DNA from: Cyclobacteriaceae bacterium
Lineage (GTDB): Bacteria; Bacteroidota; Bacteroidia; Cytophagales; Cyclobacteriaceae
Length of the DNA: 45,967 bases
Reading direction: 5' to 3'
Assembly (NCBI GenBank): GCA_947457095.1
Contig: CANGUK010000006.1
Span: forward strand, 1-45,967
This document shows, in pieces, positions 4,192 to 33,327 of the stretch. The notes beneath the pieces were generated by a model. The model was given only the letters and a program-made list of their open reading frames with translations, was not told the DNA's origin and did no database searches. Position 1 is the stretch's first letter; each line of letters opens with the position of its first letter. The position numbers and the translations under genes are program-made.

Positions 4192-5946
4192 ATGTTAAGA
4201 ACGCATACCTGCGGCGAACTTCGCCTTCAACACGTCAATCAACAGATCACCTTGGCCGGCTGGGTACAGCGTGTCAGAAATAAAGGAGGCCTGATTTGGG
4301 TGGATTTGAGGGACCGCTATGGGGTTACCCAACTGATTTTTGAAGAAGGATCTACCGATAAAGCCTTGTTGGAAAAGGCCGCTCAACTTGGACGGGAATT
4401 TGTGGTTCAAGCTACCGGAAAGGTATTGGAGCGAACTTCCAAGAATGATAAAATGGCTACCGGAGACATTGAAATCAAGGTGGAGGATTTGTCTGTTTTG
4501 AATCCAGCAAAGGTTCCTCCATTCATTATTGAAGACGAGACCGATGGTGGGGATGAACTTCGGATGCGCTACCGTTACCTGGATCTTCGCAGAAATGTAA
4601 TCCGTGAAAAACTCCAGCTCCGTCATCGCATGATGCAGGAAACCCGGACCTACATGGACAAGCAGCAGTTTATCGAAGTGGAGACGCCAGTACTGATCAA
4701 GTCTACTCCGGAAGGGGCGCGAGATTTTGTGGTGCCTAGCCGTGTAAATCCAGGGGAGTTTTATGCCTTACCTCAATCTCCACAGACTTTCAAGCAACTC
4801 TTGATGGTCAGTGGATTTGACCGCTACTTTCAAATCGTCAAATGCTTTCGAGACGAGGACTTGCGCGCCGACAGGCAGCCTGAGTTTACCCAAATTGACT
4901 GTGAGATGGCCTTTGTCAACCAAGAGGACATTCTCAACACTTTTGAAGGACTCATCAAGCACTTATTTTTATCAGTAAAAGGGGTGAACCTAGGCCATGT
5001 ACCCCACATGACTTATGCCGATGCCATGAAATTCTATGGCAATGATAAGCCAGATTTGCGCTTCGACATGAAATTTGTGGACCTGACTACCCTTGCCAAA
5101 GGAACTGGGTTTGCTGTGATCGATCAGGCGGAAATAGTTCTAGGTATCTGTGCCAAAGGAGCAGGGGAATACACGCGCAAGCAATTGGATGAGTTGACGG
5201 ATTGGGTCAAGCGACCACAAATCGGCGCTAAAGGTTTGATTTATGTGCGCTACCAAGAAGATGGACTACTTAAGTCCAGCGTAGACAAGTTTTACTCTCA
5301 AGAACAATTGAAGACCTGGGCAGATGCCTGTGGTGCTGTTCCTGGAGATTTGATTCTAGTGCTTAGTGGAGATGAAAAAACCACCCGCAAGCAACTTTCA
5401 GAACTTCGCTTGAAGATGGGTGAAGACCTGGGCTTGCGCGATCGATCTGTATTTGTGCCGCTATGGGTGGTAGACTTTCCGCTACTGGAGTGGGATGAGG
5501 AATCTCAGCGCTTCCATGCCATGCACCACCCATTTACCTCTCCCAAGCGAGAAGACATACCGTTGCTGGAATCAGATCCAGGTTCTGTGCGAGCCAATGC
5601 CTACGACTTGGTGATCAACGGGGTAGAAGTGGGCGGAGGGTCGATTCGTATCCACGACCGCGCCACCCAGCAACTGATGTTTACACACCTAGGGTTTTCG
5701 GATGAGGAGGCACAGAAGCAGTTTGGATTTTTGATGGAAGCCTTTGAATACGGAGCTCCACCACACGGAGGAATTGCCTTTGGATTCGATCGATTGTGTG
5801 CCATTTTTGGTGGCTCCGACTCTATTCGCGATTACATTGCCTTCCCTAAGAATAACTCAGGTAGAGATGTCATGATTGATTCTCCGAGTACGCTTGCCGA
5901 TGCGCAATTGGAAGAGTTGTCTATTCGGGTGGCCTTGAAAAAGTAA
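4192..5946 (+). CDS. aspS: aspartate--tRNA ligase
   Basis: 584 aa; [44 protein letters not shown] and class II motifs ([27 protein letters not shown]). Confidence 0.98.
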
Positions 5947-5998
5947 AGAGAAGCCGAATAGGGATTTTCAAATGGCAACGAAAATTTAGGATTAATTG

Positions 5999-6026: not shown

Positions 6027-6810
6027 ATTTGGCTCCGACCAGGTAGGAGCGGATTCCCATGACCAGCAAGAGTTGCGCTGTAGCGTAGGTTCCCATGATG
6101 AGAATGCCTGCTTCAGGAAAATCTTTATAAAATCGGGCGAGCGCCAAGATCCCATCAGACACCAAGAAAAATAGGGCTCCAATAAAAACTTGCCAGAAGG
6201 AGGCTGCATTTACCTTTTTGAAACGAGCCCGTGCAGTGGTTACCATGCCCACAATGACGAGGATGTAGGCGATGACTGGGATTTTCAAACCTCCTAGATT
6301 GGGATAGATAAAATAGAAAACCAATCCTGCCAAAAAATAGATGGGAAGGTTGTAAAAAAAGCTGCGGATAGTATACCAGGAATCTAGACGTCCTTCGGGT
6401 AGCTGTGCTAATCGAAAGCCAAAAATATAGCAAACATGAGCCATCAAAAACGCTCCTAATCCATAGATAAATAGGTCTGACCAGAGGAGTAAAATGTCAC
6501 CTAGCCAGGAAAATAAAAGTGCTGCCAAGATGGTTTTGGCCAGAAGGGTGGAGGCAATGGGCTTGCTGATGAAATAGAAATACAGAATCAAGCCCAGTAG
6601 AATTACTGGTTTGGAATATACGCGCATGGAATCATTTTGCTCAGTTAAGAAGCTTAAATCCACGATAGTAGCGATCAAAAACAGGTAAAGCCAGATGATA
6701 TTTTTGTCTCTCAAGGCAGGGATTGATTTTTTGCTAAAACTAAGGTTAAAATTTAATCCAATATCAATTCCATTGAAAATAGGGACATACTTGAAACAAT
6801 ATTTTGTCAA
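6025..6810 (-). CDS. lysoplasmalogenase / YhhN family membrane protein (N-terminus uncertain)
   Basis: multi-TM protein; KPVILLGLILYF...LLFSWLGDILLLW...HVCYIFGF pattern of the YhhN family. Confidence 0.8.
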   Translation of the reverse strand: MTKYCFKYVPIFNGIDIGLNFNLSFSKKSIPALRDKNIIWLYLFLIATIVDLSFLTEQNDSMRVYSKPVILLGLILYFYFISKPIASTLLAKTILAALLFSWLGDILLLWSDLFIYGLGAFLMAHVCYIFGFRLAQLPEGRLDSWYTIRSFFYNLPIYFLAGLVFYFIYPNLGGLKIPVIAYILVIVGMVTTARARFKKVNAASFWQVFIGALFFLVSDGILALARFYKDFPEAGILIMGTYATAQLLLVMGIRSYLVGAK

Positions 6811-7051: not shown

Positions 7052-10000
7052 ATGAGGCAAAATTTACTGAAGAATTTGCTGGCCGTATTTCTACTCGTGA
7101 TGAGTACGGGGCTAGCAATGTCACAGGGAGTTACGACTTCTGGTATCACCGGAACAGTAACAGAAGCCAACGGACAGGCCCTTCCAGGAGCCAACGTGGT
7201 TGCTACGCACCTTCCTTCAGGTACTCGCTATGGCGCTGTATCTAACGTAGAAGGTAAATATTCTATTCCAGGGATGCGTATTGGAGGACCATACAGAGTT
7301 TCTGTATCCTTCATCGGATTTTCTACGCAAGATGTAGAGGGTTTGATCCTTTCTTTGGGTACATTCTCCAATGTAAACATCACCTTGAAAGAAGATGGCC
7401 AGGAACTTTCTGAAGTGTTGATCACTGCAGATCAAAACAGCCTTTTCTCTAGCGAGCGTACAGGTGCTAACACTGCGATCGACAACAGAGCATTGAACAA
7501 GCTTCCTACCATCTCTAGAAGTATCAACGACTTCACAAGATTGTCTCCACAGTCAAATGGTCAGTCTTTTGCTGGTCAGGATTCTCGATTGAACAACATT
7601 ACTGTCGATGGATCTTACTTCAACAACTCATTTGGTTTGGGTTCTGGTTCTAACCCAGGTGGTAGAACAGGTGTATCTCCAATCTCTTTGGATGCGATCG
7701 AACAGATCTCTGTAAACGTGGCTCCTTATGACGTGAGACAAGGTAACTTTACTGGTGCTGGTGTAAATACAGTAACCCGTTCAGGTACCAACGAATTTTC
7801 AGGATCTGCTTACTATTTCACTAGAAATAACAACAACGTAGGTAAAGAGGCAGGATTAAACGCGTTTAACCCTGGTGATTTCAGCTACAAGCAGATGGGA
7901 TTCCGCGTAGGCGGTCCAATCATCAAAGACAAATTGTTCTTCTTCGCTTCTTTTGAAGATGAAGCAGAAGCAAGACCAGGTACCACTTGGACTGCAAATA
8001 AAGGTAGTGAGCCAATTACTGGTAACGTAACTCGCGTATTGGCTTCTGACCTTGATGGATTGAGCTCTTACTTGAAAAGCAAGTTTAACTACGAAACTGG
8101 CCCTTACCAAGGATACGACAACGAAACCTTAGGTAAGAAGTTTTTGATCAAGTTGGACTACAACATCAATGAAAAGAACAAGCTTAGCTTGAGATACAAC
8201 CAATTGGATTCTTCTACTGACGTGTTGATGTCTGGTTCTTCTTCTCTAGGTTTCGGTAACCGTAACTTCAGACCAGAAGCTTTGAACTTCCAGAATTCTA
8301 ACTACAGCATTATGGAGAACATCAAATCTGTAGTTGCAGAATTGAATACACGTATCAATGCCAACATGTCAAATAACTTGATCGTTGGTTACACCTATCA
8401 GGACGAAAGCCGTGGTTACAAGGGTGAATTCTTCCCAATGGTGGATATCTTGAACAACGGTGCTACCTATACTTCTTTTGGATTTGAGCCTTTCACTCCA
8501 AACAACGAATTGCGTTACAAGACTTTCCAAATCCAGGAAAACTTGCAAATCTTTAAGGGTAACCATACCATCACTACTGGTTTCAGCTACGAAAACTACC
8601 AGTCTGAAAACGTATTCTTCCCAGGTTCTCAGTCAGTATATGTATACAACTCTTTGGCAGACTTCTACAAGGATGCGGATAACTTCCTTGCCAATGGCAA
8701 CTCCGTTGCCTCAGGTGTAACTCAGAGAAGATTCCAGGTTCGTTGGAACAATATCCCTGGATCTGAGAAGCCAATCCAGCCTTTGGAAGTAAACTACGGT
8801 GGTGTCTTCATTCAGGACGAATGGCAGGCTAGAACCAACTTGAAATTGACAGCTGGTTTGAGAGTAGACGTGCCTTACTTTGAGCAGACTGCGCTTAGAA
8901 ATACAGAAATGGAGACCATGTACTTCAGAAATCCAGCTGGCGCATTTGTAAACTTTAGAACGGATGCTCTTCCTGATGCCAACCTATTGTGGTCTCCACG
9001 TGTAGGTTTCAACTGGGATGTGTTTAACAACCAGAAGACTCAAATTAGAGGTGGTTCAGGTGTATTCACCGGTCGTCCAGCTTACGTATGGATTTCCAAC
9101 CAAGTTGGTAATAACGGTATCTTGACTGGTTTTGCTCAGTTGGATAACACCACTACAAGACCATTCAATCCAGATCCTAATAAGTACAAGCCAACTGAAG
9201 TTTCTGGTACACCAGCATCTTCTTACGAGCTTGCCTTGACTGAGACCAATTTCAAGTTTCCTCAGGTATGGAGAACCAACATCGCAGTAGATCAGCAGTT
9301 GCCTGAAGGAATTATTGCTACAGGTGAATTTATCTACAACCAGGACGTGAACGGGGTAGCATACTACAACGCGAACTTGCCAGTTCAATTCTCTCAATTC
9401 GCTGGAAATGATACCCGTGCAAGATGGAATGCGCCTTCTAACCCCAACCGACTAAATGCTAAAATTCCAAATGCAGTAACCTTGTCTAACCAGGCGATAG
9501 GTTACTCATGGGTAGCTTCTTTCTCTTTGGAAAGACCATTCACAAACGGTCTATTCTTGAAAGCTGCTTATAGCTACGGTGAGTCTAAAAACACAGTCGA
9601 TCCAGGATCTATTGCTTCAGGTACTTGGTTTGGTAATCCAATTACTTCCGATCCAAACAACCCTGGTTTAGCAATGTCTTCCAACTTTATGGGTCACAGA
9701 GTTTTCGCTACCGCGTCTTACTCTAAAGATATCTTCAAGTTTGGAAACACCTCCATCTCAATCTTCTGGGAAGGTAGAACAATCGGTAACGCCAGCTACG
9801 TGGTTGGTGGTGACTTGAATGGTGATGGTGGTACCGCTAACGACTTGATCTACATCCCTGCTACTAAGGCAGAAATGAACTTCCAATCTTTTACGGCAAG
9901 TGGTAAGACCTTTACTGCTGCAGAGCAAGCAGATGCATGGGAAGCGTATATCCTTCAGGACAAGTACTTGAGCGCCAACAGAGGTGGATATGCTCAAAGA

Positions 10001-27040: not shown

Positions 27041-28078
27041 ATGAGCGAACAGCACCTGGAAGAAGACTTTGAAGAAGATGAGTTAGCCTTGTATGAGCAC
27101 CATCGAATCGTGGTGGACAAGGGGCAATCTCCCGTTCGGATTGATAAGTTTTTAACGGAACGGATTGCAAATTCCACGCGCAACAAGGTGCAGCAAACCA
27201 TCGACTCTGGAGGAGTACAGGTCAATGGCCATTCCGTCAAGTCCAATTACCGGATCAAGGGATTAGATGATATTCGGGTGCTTCTGGAGAAGCCTCCCCG
27301 TGATACAGAAGTGATTTCGGAAAATATTCCCCTAGATATTGTCTATGAGGATGCGGATTTATTGGTGGTCAATAAGCCTCCTGGCATGGTGGTTCACCCG
27401 GCCCATGGCAATTGGTCCGGCACTTTGGTGAATGGATTGGTGTACCATTTTGAAAATTTGCCTGAGATGAAAGGAAATGTGGGAAGGCCTGGCCTTGTAC
27501 ACCGAATCGATAAAGATACTTCCGGTCTTCTGGTGATTGCCAAGACGGAAGAAACGATGGCGCCTTTGGCCGCTCAATTTTTTCATCATACCATTCAGCG
27601 CACGTACCTAGCCTTAGTTTGGGGAGAGCCAGAGGCGGATGAAGGTACTATTGTAGGCAATGTGGGGCGTAGTGCCAAAGATCGCAAGGTAATGGATGTT
27701 TTTCCGGATGGAAGTCAAGGCAAGCATGCAGTCACGCATTGGAAAGTATTGAAACGCCTGCGCTATGTGTCACTCGTTCAGTGCACCTTGGAAACGGGCA
27801 GAACACACCAAATCCGAGCACATTTTAAATTTTTGGGACATCCCTTATTCAATGATGCGATGTATGGTGGAGATAAGATTCGAAAAGGGACTCAATTTGC
27901 CAAGTACAAAAGTTTTATCAGCAATTGCTTTGATGCAATGCCACGACAGGCACTACATGCGCAGAGTTTGGGGTTTGTTCACCCTATCACGAAGGCAAAC
28001 CTCTATTTTGAAGCTCCTATTCCAACCGATTTTGCTACAGTGTTGGAGAAATGGGAGCAGTATGTGCAGTTAGATTGA
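27041..28078 (+). CDS. RluA/RluD family 23S rRNA pseudouridine synthase
   Basis: S4 domain PVRIDKFLTERI; VHRIDKDTSGLLVIAKT; GRTHQIRAHFKFLGHPLFND. Confidence 0.93.
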   Translation: MSEQHLEEDFEEDELALYEHHRIVVDKGQSPVRIDKFLTERIANSTRNKVQQTIDSGGVQVNGHSVKSNYRIKGLDDIRVLLEKPPRDTEVISENIPLDIVYEDADLLVVNKPPGMVVHPAHGNWSGTLVNGLVYHFENLPEMKGNVGRPGLVHRIDKDTSGLLVIAKTEETMAPLAAQFFHHTIQRTYLALVWGEPEADEGTIVGNVGRSAKDRKVMDVFPDGSQGKHAVTHWKVLKRLRYVSLVQCTLETGRTHQIRAHFKFLGHPLFNDAMYGGDKIRKGTQFAKYKSFISNCFDAMPRQALHAQSLGFVHPITKANLYFEAPIPTDFATVLEKWEQYVQLD

Positions 28079-28286
28079 CTTTATTTTTTTGATAAAAAGA
28101 GAAAAAGAAGGGTTCAAAAACTTGCTTATTTAACAATCAGACGGATTTTTTATGCCAATTCCTCAATTTTAATTGTTCAAACAAGTTGATAATTGACAAA
28201 TTGGTATATTTCAATCGATTTCCTTAAAAATAATGTAAATTTTTGGAATAATTGTTGAAATTTATGTAATACACGTGCCCATTCTG

Positions 28287-28294
28287 TATCTTTG
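28287..28294 (+). promoter_or_regulatory. putative -7 box (TATCTTTG) for tRNA-like RNA 1
   Basis: exact TAnnTTTG, 32 nt upstream of the tRNA-like acceptor stem, in a non-coding region. Confidence 0.55.
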
Positions 28295-28325
28295 TCCTGT
28301 TGAAATGATTTAAACATCTCAATTG

Positions 28326-28430
28326 TGTAAGAAAAAAATTTGGTGTTTTTTGCCAAATTTCAGGGAAAGAAAACAAAAGCAGTGATTATCTGTTAGTTAT
28401 CTTGAAGGTTCGATTCCTTCTCTTACAACA
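28326..28430 (+). ncRNA. tRNA-like RNA 1: acceptor stem, T-arm and an enlarged D-domain (9-bp hairpin)
   Basis: acceptor TGTAAGA (28326-28332) / TCTTACA (28421-28427); T-arm GAAGG-TTCGATT-CCTTC (28404-28420); hairpin AAATTTGGT-GTTTTTT-GCCAAATTT (28336-28360); 5-bp/7-nt arm AGCAG-TGATTAT-CTGTT (28378-28394); terminator downstream. Confidence 0.65.
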
Positions 28431-28460
28431 GGTTATTTTGGGTTTATTGTTAATTGACTA

Positions 28461-28490
28461 AAACCATGAAAATTATTTCATGGTTTTTTT
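28461..28490 (+). terminator. intrinsic terminator of tRNA-like RNA 1 unit
   Basis: AAACCATGAAA-ATTA-TTTCATGGTTTTTTT. Confidence 0.85.
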
Positions 28491-28685
28491 ATTTGCCTTT
28501 TTCGGCCTAGGCTAGCGAGCTTTTTTTAATTTTTTCTCGCAAGAACCCATTTTTAAATCCGCAATTTTCTCCCAATTCTTCGCCATCTTAGTTTTCAAAA
28601 AAGCAATGAAAAGCCTTTTAAAATAAAAAAACAATAAAAAAATAAACAAAACATTAAATAAATTTTAAATAAACAACCTTTTTAA

Positions 28686-28693
28686 TACATTTG
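28686..28693 (+). promoter_or_regulatory. putative -7 box (TACATTTG) for tRNA-like RNA 2
   Basis: exact TAnnTTTG, preceded by a G-free A-rich 60-nt tract. Confidence 0.55.
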
Positions 28694-28750
28694 CTCTTGT
28701 TGGCATTAAGGCTAGCGAAAAGAAGCGAAAAATACGTGCTTCATCCATCT

Positions 28751-28890
28751 TGTAGGGTGTTGAAATTGGCAGACAAGCCCTCCTGTCTCGGGGGTGGGGA
28801 TCCTGGTCATTAGATCGGAACGGGATAAAGCGTGTTTCAAAAGTTCATGCCTAACTGCCGCGTGGAGGTTCGAATCCTTCCCCTACAGCA
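28751..28890 (+). ncRNA. tRNA-like RNA 2: full cloverleaf elements with GUC anticodon-like loop and a 69-nt variable domain
   Basis: acceptor TGTAGGG/CCCTACA; U8; D-arm TTG-AAATTGGCAGA-CAA; anticodon arm CCCTC-CTGTCTC-GGGGG; variable 28795-28863; T-arm GGAGG-TTCGAAT-CCTTC; G73; no encoded CCA. Confidence 0.75.
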
Positions 28891-28892
28891 AC

Positions 28893-28920
28893 AAAAAAGC
28901 AGCCATTTGGCTGCTTTTTT
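28893..28920 (+). terminator. intrinsic terminator of tRNA-like RNA 2 unit
   Basis: AAAAAAGCAGCC-ATTT-GGCTGCTTTTTT. Confidence 0.9.
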
Positions 28921-28965
28921 CGTATACGGGATTTAGTAGGTATATTTCACAGTTATTACTTTTCT

Positions 28966-31900
28966 ATGGTACCCAAGTCTACTGCACAGGAAAAACCCAA
29001 AAGGTCTGCTTCCAGAAAAAAATGGCTTAGGATCCTCGGGGTAAGTTTACTTTCTCTACTTACCCTAGAATTTGCGCTTTATTTTGGCTCAAACCTGTTT
29101 TTAGGGAACTTACTCAGAAAAAAGCTGAATGATTCATTCAATGGAGTCTATGAACTAGATTTCAATCGCGTACACCTTTCCCTAATTCGTCGAGGAATTT
29201 TTTTAGACGGCATTGTCATGAAGCCCGTGCATCCAGAAAAGGCTTCTGCCAAACAGGTCTTATTTGAATTGACCTTAGATCAATTAGCATTTAAAGGACT
29301 TTGGTATGGGCTTTGGGATCAAGAACTCGATGTTCGAGAGATCAGTCTTGATCGTCCTAATTTCCAAGTATTAGCATCCACCCCTCCATCTTCTCTGGAT
29401 AAAGATGCCGGTAGCAGAACCACCACCAGGTCTCCTGTTTTTCTTTTGGAAAATGAATTGAAGAAGAGCATTGCAAATCTTCCTTTTTCCGGTGTAAAGG
29501 TGAGCACTCTAGTTGTTGATCATGCCCAAGTATTTTTTCTAAATTTTTTGAGTAAAAATGAACTCCTCGCAAAAAATGCCTCATTTAGAGCAGTGGATAT
29601 GCATTGGCTGCCAAATAGAACTTGGAATACTCCCTTCAACGCCCGTGGTTTTGAGTTTGAATTGGAGGATGTCAGCTTCCCACTTCCCGATGGAGTTCAC
29701 AGAATCACCTCGGACTTGGTTTTACTTTCTTCCTTGGAAGGTACCATGGACCTGCAGAAATTCAGAATAATTCCTGAGCGTACACAAACAAGTGATTCCT
29801 ACTATTCTCTAGAATTGGAAGAACTTCATGTGCAGCATGTCAATCTGAACCAGGCATTTAGAACTTCCACACTTGACCTCGAAGAGCTTATTCTCGAGGC
29901 CCCGCGAATTGAAGTGATTCAATCTGCTTCAAGGCCTTCTTCTTCATCCACCATCGAAGGGGACTTGCATGCATTTATTCGCGGAAAACTCAAACGCTTT
30001 TCAATCAAAGAATTAACCATCCGAGACGCAAGCTTCTTGCGAAAAGAAAAGGAGGATTCGCTTCGAAATCGAATTCAATTGGAGCAGCTTGACCTAAAAA
30101 TGGTGGATTTTTACCTGGGCGATGATTCCCTTCGAAAGCGGGATCAATTTTTTTATGGATCAGATGCCTCCCTAGAAATAGGACGAGCGGAACTCTTTTT
30201 GGGGGATGGAGTTCACGTCTTGAAAGGGGAAAAACTGGAAGCCTCGACCTTTAAAAACGAATTAGCTGGAACCAATATTCAATTAATTCCGAGAGATTAT
30301 GAAACACTAAAAGCCCGCAATCATCCTAGCTATCAAATCGATCTACAGGAATTGACCTTTGAAAATGTAGACCTAAAAAAGTGGTATCGCCAAGGGGAAC
30401 TAGAGATTGAAACCTTGACCATGCAAAAGCCCCAGCTAGCGATTAGACAAACCAAAACCCCCGCAGCCAATCAAGAAAACGAGACCTTCATTTCTCTACT
30501 CGCAGGCCTTGTCAATGAAGTAGCCATTCAAACCTTCCAAGTTGAGGAGGGAACCTTAGTTTTGAATGAGGAGTCTGGGGCAAAAAGCACCGACTTGGAC
30601 TTGGGTAAGTTTAGTCTAGAGTTGGAAAAGTTTCGTCTGCTACCCAATCGTTACCTTCCTGTTCAAGAGCAATTTCAGTTTGAGGAAGTCTTGCTCACGC
30701 TATTCGATTACCGCTTAAAGCTCCGAGACAACCTGCATGAATTTTTGGCTCAGGAGCTTTCTATCGATTCCAAAAAGGAGATTCTCAAAATAAAGAATCT
30801 GAGTATTCATCCTGCAGAATCGGCCCAAGTGCGAGAGCAGTTGCAAACTCTTGGTAAAACTACTGCAGTAGATTTTTCAATTCCCAATTTTCAAGCCAAG
30901 GGAATTGGCTTGAAAGAAGCCTTGTTTGATCAAAAATTGAGACTGAATCATCTTGAATTAGATGCTCCCACGTTCCATTGGTCTACCTACCGATCCAAGG
31001 AAAGTAAAGCCTCTGAAAATGCATTACGCTCTGCTGAGGATTTAAAAGTCCTTTTACTTGGATATTTTGAGGACATTCAGGTAGACTCAGTTACCATTTC
31101 TAATGCCAAAATTCACTATGAAAATAAAGTGAAGGAAGCGGTAACTCAATTTGAGGAGAACCAACTGTTTTTTAAGCTCAAGAATTTTGCTCTTCACAAA
31201 AATGACACGCTCAACGAGGGACGAGCACTGTTTTCTGATGAAGTCAATTTGACCTTCAATTCGTACTCATTTAGCCTCGCTGGAGGAAAATATGTAGTGG
31301 ATACAGATTACCTCAACTACAACTCCCGAACGCGCACCTTGGATTTTGAAAACTTAAGGTTACAGCCTGGAAAAGTAGGAAATCAGCGCCTAGCCTTGGG
31401 CTTTAACTTTCCCAAAGTGGCCCTTCGTGGAGTCAATGTGGAGCAATTCATTTTTGACAATGTTCTCAACCTTCAGAAGCTTGAAATCAATGGGGGAGAA
31501 ATTGCCCTAGGTGTAGATCGACAGGTACAAGCGTCGAGCAAGAGTGCCTTGCGCTCAAGAAATTTAGCTCTACAACGTACCGTGGAACGGGTACATATTG
31601 ACACCATTTCCACATCCAATGCGACCTTGCAACTCAACTATTTGGATCAAACCCAGTCTAAAAAAGCCATAAAAACAGGCTTTGGTCTCAACCTCACCCA
31701 GTTTGATTTGGATAGCCTTCGCGTACGGACTCAAGACCTTTCCAAGACCTATCAAGGAGTCAATTTAGGCTTAAGTAACTTTGAATTTGCCCTTCCGGAC
31801 AGTGTGCATACGCTAAAGTTTGATGCATTTGGCTTTGGGGATGAGGAGGACGTGGTCTTTTCAGGATTAAGCATCCATCCTAAAAATCAGATTGGAACGA

Positions 31901-33327
31901 ATGGAAAGCCTGTATTCGATGGAAAAATTGAGCGGGTAGTTTTCAAGAAGAATAGTCTGTTGGATATTTTCACCAGCAAAAAGGTGGACCTACGGGAAGT
32001 GCGCGTTCAAAATCCCATTTTTTCCATTCACTTGGATAGTTTGCCTACCCCTATAACGTCCCGATCCGGAAGTTTCAAAAAAAACCCAGAGCGGGTAATT
32101 CACTCCATTCTCGTAGAGGATTTGATTTTGGAAAACGGGAAGTTTGATTTCTTTAGAAAAGGAGGAGCAGCTATTTCCAATCTAAGTTTTCCAAAAGTAG
32201 ATGGGCGACTGGAAGAATTGGGAATTGACCTTTTGGGGATGGAAAAGCTTCCTACTTGGAAGGATTTGCTCACCAAAACTAAATCCCTGAGTTTGGCGAA
32301 CTACCAGGCCTACGTTCAAGACAGTGCCTACCTTTTACAGGTAGACAGTCTTCAGTTTTTGGACAAAAGACTGCGGGTGAGTGGCATCCAATATGCTCCC
32401 CTCTTTGGGACTTATGGATATTTGAATAGCTTGCCATTTCAGCAGGAGGCGGTAAGTGCTCGTGTGGACAAACTCGACATTCGTGAAATTGAAACCCAAG
32501 AATTAGTCCAAAATGGATTGTTCAAAGGAGAATCTCTGCAAGTAGATGGGGCTAAGGTTACGCTATTCCGAGATAAGCGAAAGCCAATGGATCCGCTTGG
32601 CTACAAGCCTCTTCCACAGTTCTTGATGGAGCATGCGCCGGTCAATCTTGACCTTGCATCCCTCCAATTTAGTGATAGTCGTTTGCAGTATTGGGAATTT
32701 GGAGAAAAGTCCGCCCTGCCAGGAAGCATCGCTTTTCAGAAGATTCAACTAGATGCGAGCCCATTTTACCTTCGTAAACAAGGGGAACATTATCCAGTAT
32801 CCTCCTTTAAGTTGGGAATCTCCGGACAAGTAAGCGATAGCAGTCAGCTGAATGTAACTAGTCAGCTCTACTTTGAGAAAGACTATCCCATGGATGTAGA
32901 AGTAAGCTTCGTGCGTTTTGCCTTTGCAGAAGCGGAAGATTTACTTTCCAAGACTGCCTTTGTGAGACCCTTAGGAGGTGGAGTGACGCAGGGTACTTGG
33001 CAGTTTCGCTTGGATGAGCAGGAGGCCCGGGGAAGCATGGCCTTGGGCTATACGGGCTTAAAGATCCAGTTTTTGGATAGTTTGACTCTTGGCCCAGGCA
33101 AAGGGAAATTGAAGTTCTATACCTATTTTGCCAACCTTTGGGCCAAAAAATCCAATCCAGGTGCAGGTTCTAATTCTTTACGCAAACGGGAAATCTACCG
33201 CTTGCGAGACACCCAAAGATCCATGGTCAATGCCTGGTGGAAAGCGACCTATGTAGGGCTAAAAAGTTCTATTGGATTTGGAAAGGTTAAGGCACCAAAA
33301 AATCTTCGAAAAGAAGATGAGTACTAG
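28966..33327 (+). CDS. giant AsmA/TamB-like repeat protein (hypothetical, N-terminal TM anchor)
   Basis: 1453 aa; N-terminal TM LRILGVSLLSLLTLEFALYFGSNLFLG; seven recurring segments of the type LDLEELILEAPRIEV at about 178-aa spacing. Confidence 0.8.
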   Translation: MVPKSTAQEKPKRSASRKKWLRILGVSLLSLLTLEFALYFGSNLFLGNLLRKKLNDSFNGVYELDFNRVHLSLIRRGIFLDGIVMKPVHPEKASAKQVLFELTLDQLAFKGLWYGLWDQELDVREISLDRPNFQVLASTPPSSLDKDAGSRTTTRSPVFLLENELKKSIANLPFSGVKVSTLVVDHAQVFFLNFLSKNELLAKNASFRAVDMHWLPNRTWNTPFNARGFEFELEDVSFPLPDGVHRITSDLVLLSSLEGTMDLQKFRIIPERTQTSDSYYSLELEELHVQHVNLNQAFRTSTLDLEELILEAPRIEVIQSASRPSSSSTIEGDLHAFIRGKLKRFSIKELTIRDASFLRKEKEDSLRNRIQLEQLDLKMVDFYLGDDSLRKRDQFFYGSDASLEIGRAELFLGDGVHVLKGEKLEASTFKNELAGTNIQLIPRDYETLKARNHPSYQIDLQELTFENVDLKKWYRQGELEIETLTMQKPQLAIRQTKTPAANQENETFISLLAGLVNEVAIQTFQVEEGTLVLNEESGAKSTDLDLGKFSLELEKFRLLPNRYLPVQEQFQFEEVLLTLFDYRLKLRDNLHEFLAQELSIDSKKEILKIKNLSIHPAESAQVREQLQTLGKTTAVDFSIPNFQAKGIGLKEALFDQKLRLNHLELDAPTFHWSTYRSKESKASENALRSAEDLKVLLLGYFEDIQVDSVTISNAKIHYENKVKEAVTQFEENQLFFKLKNFALHKNDTLNEGRALFSDEVNLTFNSYSFSLAGGKYVVDTDYLNYNSRTRTLDFENLRLQPGKVGNQRLALGFNFPKVALRGVNVEQFIFDNVLNLQKLEINGGEIALGVDRQVQASSKSALRSRNLALQRTVERVHIDTISTSNATLQLNYLDQTQSKKAIKTGFGLNLTQFDLDSLRVRTQDLSKTYQGVNLGLSNFEFALPDSVHTLKFDAFGFGDEEDVVFSGLSIHPKNQIGTNGKPVFDGKIERVVFKKNSLLDIFTSKKVDLREVRVQNPIFSIHLDSLPTPITSRSGSFKKNPERVIHSILVEDLILENGKFDFFRKGGAAISNLSFPKVDGRLEELGIDLLGMEKLPTWKDLLTKTKSLSLANYQAYVQDSAYLLQVDSLQFLDKRLRVSGIQYAPLFGTYGYLNSLPFQQEAVSARVDKLDIREIETQELVQNGLFKGESLQVDGAKVTLFRDKRKPMDPLGYKPLPQFLMEHAPVNLDLASLQFSDSRLQYWEFGEKSALPGSIAFQKIQLDASPFYLRKQGEHYPVSSFKLGISGQVSDSSQLNVTSQLYFEKDYPMDVEVSFVRFAFAEAEDLLSKTAFVRPLGGGVTQGTWQFRLDEQEARGSMALGYTGLKIQFLDSLTLGPGKGKLKFYTYFANLWAKKSNPGAGSNSLRKREIYRLRDTQRSMVNAWWKATYVGLKSSIGFGKVKAPKNLRKEDEY

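Follow-up and report, generated by a model that had tools for sequence, protein, structure and literature searches.

The island between positions 28,079 and 28,965 of a 45,967-nt stretch of Algoriphagus DNA (the window, by which we mean the whole stretch analysed) appears to hold two members of a single family of tRNA-like RNAs, the first of them followed by a 3' trailer that is better conserved than anything else in its unit. We propose, with a rough probability of 0.55, that a FopS-like sRNA, released by this tRNA-like processing module, would repress susC-type leaders and would itself be titrated by an antisense sponge RNA. A preliminary description had seen here a conserved, paired, tRNA-like and non-coding system, which was borne out; it overlooked the invariant trailer, a trans-encoded antisense partner and sites lying close to start codons, and these three features together suggest that a tRNA-like module launches a regulatory sRNA. 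As a family the tRNA-like RNAs look new, while the regulatory logic is made of known kinds in a new combination.

Two tRNA-like units in a non-coding island

The window is contig 6 of an Algoriphagus genome (Bacteroidota; 2.47 Mb, 84% complete). On one side the island is flanked by a pseudouridine synthase gene (27041-28078, PF00849) and on the other by an ORF of 1453 aa (28966-33327). The latter has no Pfam match, so that of the rluD-like to AsmA-like setting first proposed only the pseudouridine synthase is confirmed. An ORF check agrees that no credible protein-coding frame covers the island, and both boxes, the U1:A72 acceptor stems and the terminators stand exactly where they had been placed, or at most one base away. 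Conservation of the pair in relatives, on which the preliminary description had staked its case, was found: both units recur together across Algoriphagus, the 3' half of element 1 in 36 of 37 genomes (that of the window counted) and element 2 likewise in 36 of 37. The genus genome in which the 3' half of element 1 is missing (G013) has no more than a short match, which falls in the antisense gene described below.

Both units are read from the + strand. The first opens with a -7 box, TATCTTTG (TAnnTTTG, 28287-28294), a motif that most related copies also have, some 38-47 nt ahead of the acceptor. Element 1 itself (28326-28428) is a mini or degenerate tRNA-like RNA, which retains only the acceptor and T-arm among the features of a tRNA: an acceptor TGTAAGA/TCTTACA (28326-28332/28421-28427) of seven Watson-Crick pairs, a 10-bp hairpin replacing the D-arm (28336-28360), a T-arm (28404-28420) and the discriminator A28428. 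It folds better than its own shuffles (z -3.4). Two tRNA-like units are thus present, as had been claimed, yet not as sister tRNAs of equal rank, since element 1 has lost its D-arm and anticodon arm. In most Algoriphagus the first copy is a full tRNA-like RNA with both of these arms; in the reduced-genome clade of the window its body is a long hairpin followed by an A-rich stretch, the acceptor and T-arm being kept. In all of 26 trailer-bearing copies examined the acceptor is able to pair at 6-7 of its 7 positions (the 5' strand was placed by best match, which slightly biases the figure toward pairing), and the T-stem pairs at 5 of 5 in every copy except that of L340. Because these acceptors pair despite differing in sequence (TGTAAGA/TCTTACA or AGTAGGA/TCCTGCT, for example) while the trailer stays constant, the minihelix is kept as structure and the trailer as sequence.

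Element 2 (28751-28888), preceded by its own -7 box TACATTTG (TAnnTTTG, 28686-28693), is a type-II tRNA-like RNA with every arm in place. Its acceptor UGUAGGG/CCCUACA (28751-28757/28881-28887) leads to a D-stem (28760-28762/28774-28776) in a Leu-like D-arm, UUGAAAUUGGCAGACAA, and then to an anticodon stem (28777-28782/28790-28795; CCCUC/GGGGG plus a 26-44 G-U pair) closing the loop CUGUCUC (28783-28789), with GUC at 28785-28787. A variable region of about 68 nt forms a giant structured arm, with a base stem (28796-28799/28858-28861) and a conserved internal-loop motif (28824-28855) that runs from GAUAAAGC (28824-28831) to GCCUAAC (28849-28855); it is structured across the family as well, with a median of 73 nt. 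The T-arm (28864-28880) and the discriminator G73 (28888), behind which no CCA is encoded, complete the element, and an intrinsic terminator follows (28893-28920). A reading of the AUAAA/CUAAC motif of the variable arm as a GNRA receptor was considered and found unsupported. In some genera (L043, L047, L049) one or two bulged U are seen in the T-stem, which is unusual.

Folding of the single sequence did not recover the cloverleaf of element 2 (z 0.17 against shuffles), and it is covariation that we take as decisive for the predicted structure. In an alignment of 21 sequences made without a covariance model, 97.1% of cells pair and 14 of the 28 pairs show double changes, against a shuffle mean of 5.6, no shuffle reaching 14; among 119 distinct sequences, in an alignment fitted to the covariance model, 18 of the 28 pairs have changes on both sides and 97% of pair cells are standard. 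U1:A72 is found in 118 of these 119, and G2:C71 and U3:A70 in all. Element 2 and its relatives share a 7-bp acceptor, a D-arm, a 7-nt anticodon loop and a T-arm with a TTCRANN loop, so that the acceptor/T domain is 7/5 (7-bp acceptor, 5-bp T-stem) and not the 8/4, 9/3 or 8/5 of allo-tRNAs and tRNA-Sec. The likeness of the acceptor/T ends in both elements is consistent with common processing, and their differing bodies suggest different jobs, both as first supposed.

ARAGORN called no tRNA or tmRNA in the island or elsewhere in the window, and neither element was called in a tRNA search of the window's own genome. Rfam 15 at gathering score gave no match in the window, in either element or at the antisense loci, in line with the earlier claim of an undescribed RNA; loose E-values yielded nothing credible, RF01852 giving a weak sub-threshold match to element 1 only and RF00023 (tmRNA) chance-level matches only. 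A tmRNA identity for the island was rejected on these Rfam and ARAGORN results. Literature searches, whose reach excluded most subscription papers, did not find a description of the family.

The 3' trailer, its antisense partner and candidate targets

The 3' end of unit 1 had been taken for a plain terminator, a view that must be given up: the trailer (28429-28490), our proposed sRNA, is the best-conserved part of the unit. It comprises a conserved core, GGTTATTTTGGGTTTATTGTTAATTGACTAAA (28431-28462), of which 32-33 nt are identical across genera of the Cyclobacteriaceae (Cyclobacterium, Belliella, Mariniradius and Aquiflexum among them) while the tRNA-like bodies diverge, and an intrinsic terminator (28460-28490); in the predicted fold the terminator is strong and the part upstream weakly structured. 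Outside Algoriphagus the trailer was found in 12 of 15 Cyclobacteriaceae genomes searched, all 12 having two exact copies in different places, of which one nearly always follows a full tRNA-like RNA and the other a mini form of about 50-75 nt. A coding trailer was rejected: no base of the core varies, not even at third codon positions, and start-to-stop frames seen in it run to 7 codons at most. Other lineages have conserved trailers of their own, for example TTTTTGGGTTAATGTTGTTTATTTGAA in Marinoscillum and in Ekhidna, or ATTTGGTTTTTAGTTTGTTGATGAAGTGTAA in genomes of Dyadobacter type. Behind the copies of Saprospiraceae and phages there is only a terminator or the next gene, and the full tRNA-like RNA must therefore have another role. 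Two further arrangements may be recorded: Marinoscillum furvescens (L310:2649-8203) has three full copies and some 14 tandem partial 3' halves, each made of a T-arm with an insert in its T-loop, the acceptor 3' strand and the trailer, that is, 17 trailers in 5.6 kb; and in G018 (L270:1967-1988) 22 nt of the trailer core recur exactly, in sense orientation, directly 5' of the terminator of an apparent mRNA.

A segment of the trailer (28437-28467) is complementary to an sRNA encoded elsewhere. The gene is unlinked and conserved in eleven congeners, and is read from the strand opposite that of the trailer match; in the window's own genome its 5' 64 nt are present (G000:C59:15285-15348), up to the end of a contig. 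In Algoriphagus it reads as an sRNA of about 110-115 nt, and diverged homologues occur in 11 genomes of eight other genera. In Algoriphagus as in these eight, the gene comes with a -7-like box and a terminator of its own. In the non-reduced congeners the antisense sequence ATGGTTTTAATCCATTAACAATAAACCC and the reverse-complemented trailer agree in 26 of 28 bases. Trailer and partner are complementary in 20 of 20 genomes, with a predicted duplex of -30 to -50 kcal/mol, which beats all 60 shuffles in 19 of them (G036 being the exception). Core duplexes of cognate pairs (-33.2/-34.7 kcal/mol) are about 4 kcal/mol stronger than those formed across clades (-28.8/-30.7). The trailer AAAACCAU of Algoriphagus is matched by AUGGUUUU in the partner, and AAAGCUGU of other genera by AUGGCUGU or ACGGCUGU, an A-U pair becoming G-C between clades; in G170, where GACTA of the trailer has become GATTA, the partner carries the matching A. 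The genomes being related, such clade-matched changes are not a tally of independent events. Marinoscillum- and Ekhidna-type genomes gave no clear conserved antisense gene, only isolated sites in 5'UTRs and 3'UTRs. In members of these two genera (L319, L327) words complementary to the trailer stand between an apparent gene end and its own terminator, possibly as 3'UTR-encoded sponges.

Candidate targets were sought in five Algoriphagus genomes with the word TAACAATAAACCC, at most one mismatch being allowed and trailers and antisense genes being left out. Raw counts of target words were only modestly above control (77 vs 54). The sites examined numbered 69 for the word and 51 for its reversed form, counts that are near-complete rather than complete. 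Thirteen of the 69 lie in an intergenic leader within 60 nt upstream of a same-strand start codon, most of them at 0-13 nt, as against none of the 51 control sites (Fisher p 6e-4), a control that may leave some leader bias in place, for leaders in Bacteroidota have a composition of their own. Eight of the 13 precede SusC-type proteins, recognized through Pfam by a CarboxypepD_reg-like domain and, where the stretch was long enough, by a Plug domain; three of these eight genes are apparent orthologues from three species. Among the others are genes for a BNR-repeat (sialidase-like) protein and for a LacI-type regulator. In Dyadobacter the word of that lineage's own trailer is also found at start codons, with counts of 24 vs 27 for the control (trailers included) and with no control of location; leader composition may on this account lie behind the start-proximal placement.

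The sequences themselves show the anatomy, its conservation, the trans complementarity with clade-matched changes and where the sites lie at susC starts; from transcription through cutting and release to repression and the direction of the sponge, the steps are inferred. The mechanism we have in mind would run as follows. Element 2 would be the full form (type A) of the family and would be transcribed; element 1 would be its stripped form, whose acceptor/T-arm minihelix would be the handle for processing. Cuts by RNase P and RNase Z would excise element 1 and free the trailer, an sRNA of about 60 nt in which a weakly structured, near-invariant 5' segment is followed by a terminator. This sRNA would pair with leaders in which AACAAUAAACCC stands a few bases before the start codon, mainly those of susC-type TonB-transporter mRNAs, and pairing would block translation, as FopS does in Bacteroides; the trailer sRNA may in this way switch off nutrient-uptake genes. 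The trans-encoded sRNA, having the same target-like sequence, would pair along about 28 nt of the trailer and act as its sponge.

The complementarity and its clade-matched changes fit equally well a reverse direction, where the antisense sRNA would regulate mRNAs and the tRNA-like trailer would be the sponge, as is the 3'ETS of leuZ. A tRNA-trailer sponge has an exact precedent (PMC8166272), and the conserved core of the antisense RNA reaches beyond the pairing segment. By contrast, the antisense RNA carries the susC-leader word, and so resembles a decoy of the targets rather than a binder of leaders; the trailer, for its part, occurs twice per genome in many genera and 17 times in Marinoscillum. 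Since the leaders and the antisense RNA of Algoriphagus have this word in common, we favour that RNA as a decoy for the trailer over the reverse direction, which we hold to be unlikely.

The family in Bacteroidota and in phages

Membership was set at a covariance-model score of at least 85 bits. Clear members score 85-136 bits; three intermediate matches are found at 67-76 bits, and below them matches of 85-90 nt, up to about 63 bits, are taken to be ordinary tRNA-Leu. Above the cut-off the family is present in 41 of 398 sampled Bacteroidota genomes, from 7 families, the holders including Algoriphagus, Cyclobacterium, Echinicola, Belliella, Hymenobacter, Pontibacter, Dyadobacter, Spirosoma, Emticicia, Aquirufa, Marinoscillum, Ekhidna, Portibacter and Saprospiraceae bins. 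It is also present on 47 IMG/VR viral contigs, often packed within phage tRNA arrays, with at least three ordinary tRNA genes in 16 of these stretches; distant blastn searches of INPHARED phages and of PLSDB plasmids gave no match. Several viral copies lie 3-7 nt from the flanking tRNAs, such as that between tRNA-Gly and tRNA-Ser in L220 (3167-3319) and that between tRNA-Ser and tRNA-Leu in L224 (7301-7453), and owing to this packing we infer that the tRNA-like RNA is probably cut from precursors as a tRNA is. Cis-regulation of the adjacent genes, one of the roles suggested at first, sits badly with this distribution: surroundings differ between lineages and phage copies lie inside tRNA arrays, so that the RNA probably acts in trans. 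The other roles suggested at first, those of aminoacyl donor, of sensor of CCA or processing state and of primer, gained no support here. The large phages of the group have, besides, another set of tRNA-like RNAs, Leu-like and several per phage, with the acceptor AGTCAGG/CCTGACT and common D- and T-arm ends around differing inserts and anticodon arms (L220:6141-6262, 6476-6616, 7681-7830; L224:4907-5051, 5866-5975; L251:3170-3300; also in L252 and L254). On two viral contigs, L217 and L239, a tmRNA is found near the tRNA-like gene.

Tight packing beside real tRNAs, together with tRNA core features, would also suit a translating tRNA of an unusual sort: element 2 would be a type-II tRNA with anticodon GUC, possibly accepting Ser or Asp, element 1 a decaying duplicate, and the trailer incidental. 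GUC is indeed the anticodon of most family copies, and G73 with a long variable arm are identity features for SerRS (PMC7609411). Yet canonical tRNA-Asp(GUC) coexists in phage arrays, loop position 33 may be other than U, and C, A or U can stand at position 34 (CUC among the Hymenobacter copies listed); the variation at these two positions argues against a simple decoding role. A decaying duplicate, moreover, would not be expected to preserve acceptor pairing while its sequence changes, nor to keep a promoter box and a trailer that does not vary, and we find this explanation distinctly improbable. An AspRS identity was rejected: U35, C36 and C38, mostly kept across family loops, would fit, as would G73, but position 34 is variable.

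In G008 the first copy is interrupted within its T-arm (L273:4720-6143) next to a tyrosine-integrase-like gene (PF13102, with PF00589 just under cut-off), its 3' part lying about 22.7 kb away across the ends of the record, and the tRNA-like gene there looks like an integration site. That the repeated 3' halves, of which the Marinoscillum tandem array would be another case, are attachment-site remnants of integrative elements targeting the tRNA-like gene is nevertheless very improbable, for mini copies have promoter-like boxes and a paired 5' acceptor strand of their own, the trailer is invariant between genera, and no integrase-like ORF was seen near the copies of the window.

Comparison with known systems

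A wider reading, which we hold tentatively and at a little less than even odds, is that type-II tRNA-like RNAs that do not decode, a family widespread in bacteria and phages, became in Cytophagales a modular sRNA launcher, with a handle that can shrink to an acceptor/T-arm minihelix and is processed, a near-invariant global sRNA acting on transporter leaders, a dedicated trans sponge and trailers specific to lineages in different families. If true, this would give a conserved family of tRNA-like RNAs to a phylum whose post-transcriptional control has only begun to be charted; it would reveal a second, independently organized sRNA layer on susC-type transporters, outside Bacteroides, and supply a natural case in which a tRNA fold has shrunk to a handle for processing. 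The large phages that carry the full form in their tRNA arrays would offer a further route to its cellular role.

The TMERs of gammaherpesviruses, which are viral and made by Pol III, use a tRNA-like element as a processing module that releases microRNAs. The likeness lies in a tRNA-like module freeing a small RNA, and no evolutionary link is claimed. Allo-tRNAs, reported from Clostridia, Proteobacteria and Acidobacteria, have 8/4 or 9/3 domains (PMC7609411); they share with the present family a long variable arm, SerRS-type identity features and anticodons that do not match the body, whereas this family is 7/5, belongs to Bacteroidota and has a structured variable region with a median of 73 nt. 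Closer at hand, and a parallel for the launch side, is 3'ETS-leuZ of E. coli, a tRNA-trailer sponge for RyhB and RybB (PMC8166272), where, as here in 20 of 20 genomes, the 3' trailer of a tRNA-type transcript is complementary to a trans-encoded sRNA. In our case the trailer follows a tRNA-like RNA, no canonical tRNA, that can shrink to a minihelix while the trailer is invariant, and the direction is probably opposite, the trailer being the regulator and its partner the sponge. Finally, as the parallel for the target side, FopS of Bacteroides thetaiotaomicron is a paralogous family of sRNAs with a single-stranded seed and a terminator, repressing initiation at susC; its members have promoters of their own and are intergenic, antisense or derived from 3'UTRs, and one FopS sequence is known from a phage (PMC11697453). 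As far as the described features go, the trailer RNA resembles them in being multicopy and in having a single-stranded 5' seed followed by an intrinsic terminator, and may, as predicted, also pair beside susC-type start codons; it differs from them in standing behind a tRNA-like module and in having a conserved antisense partner encoded in trans.
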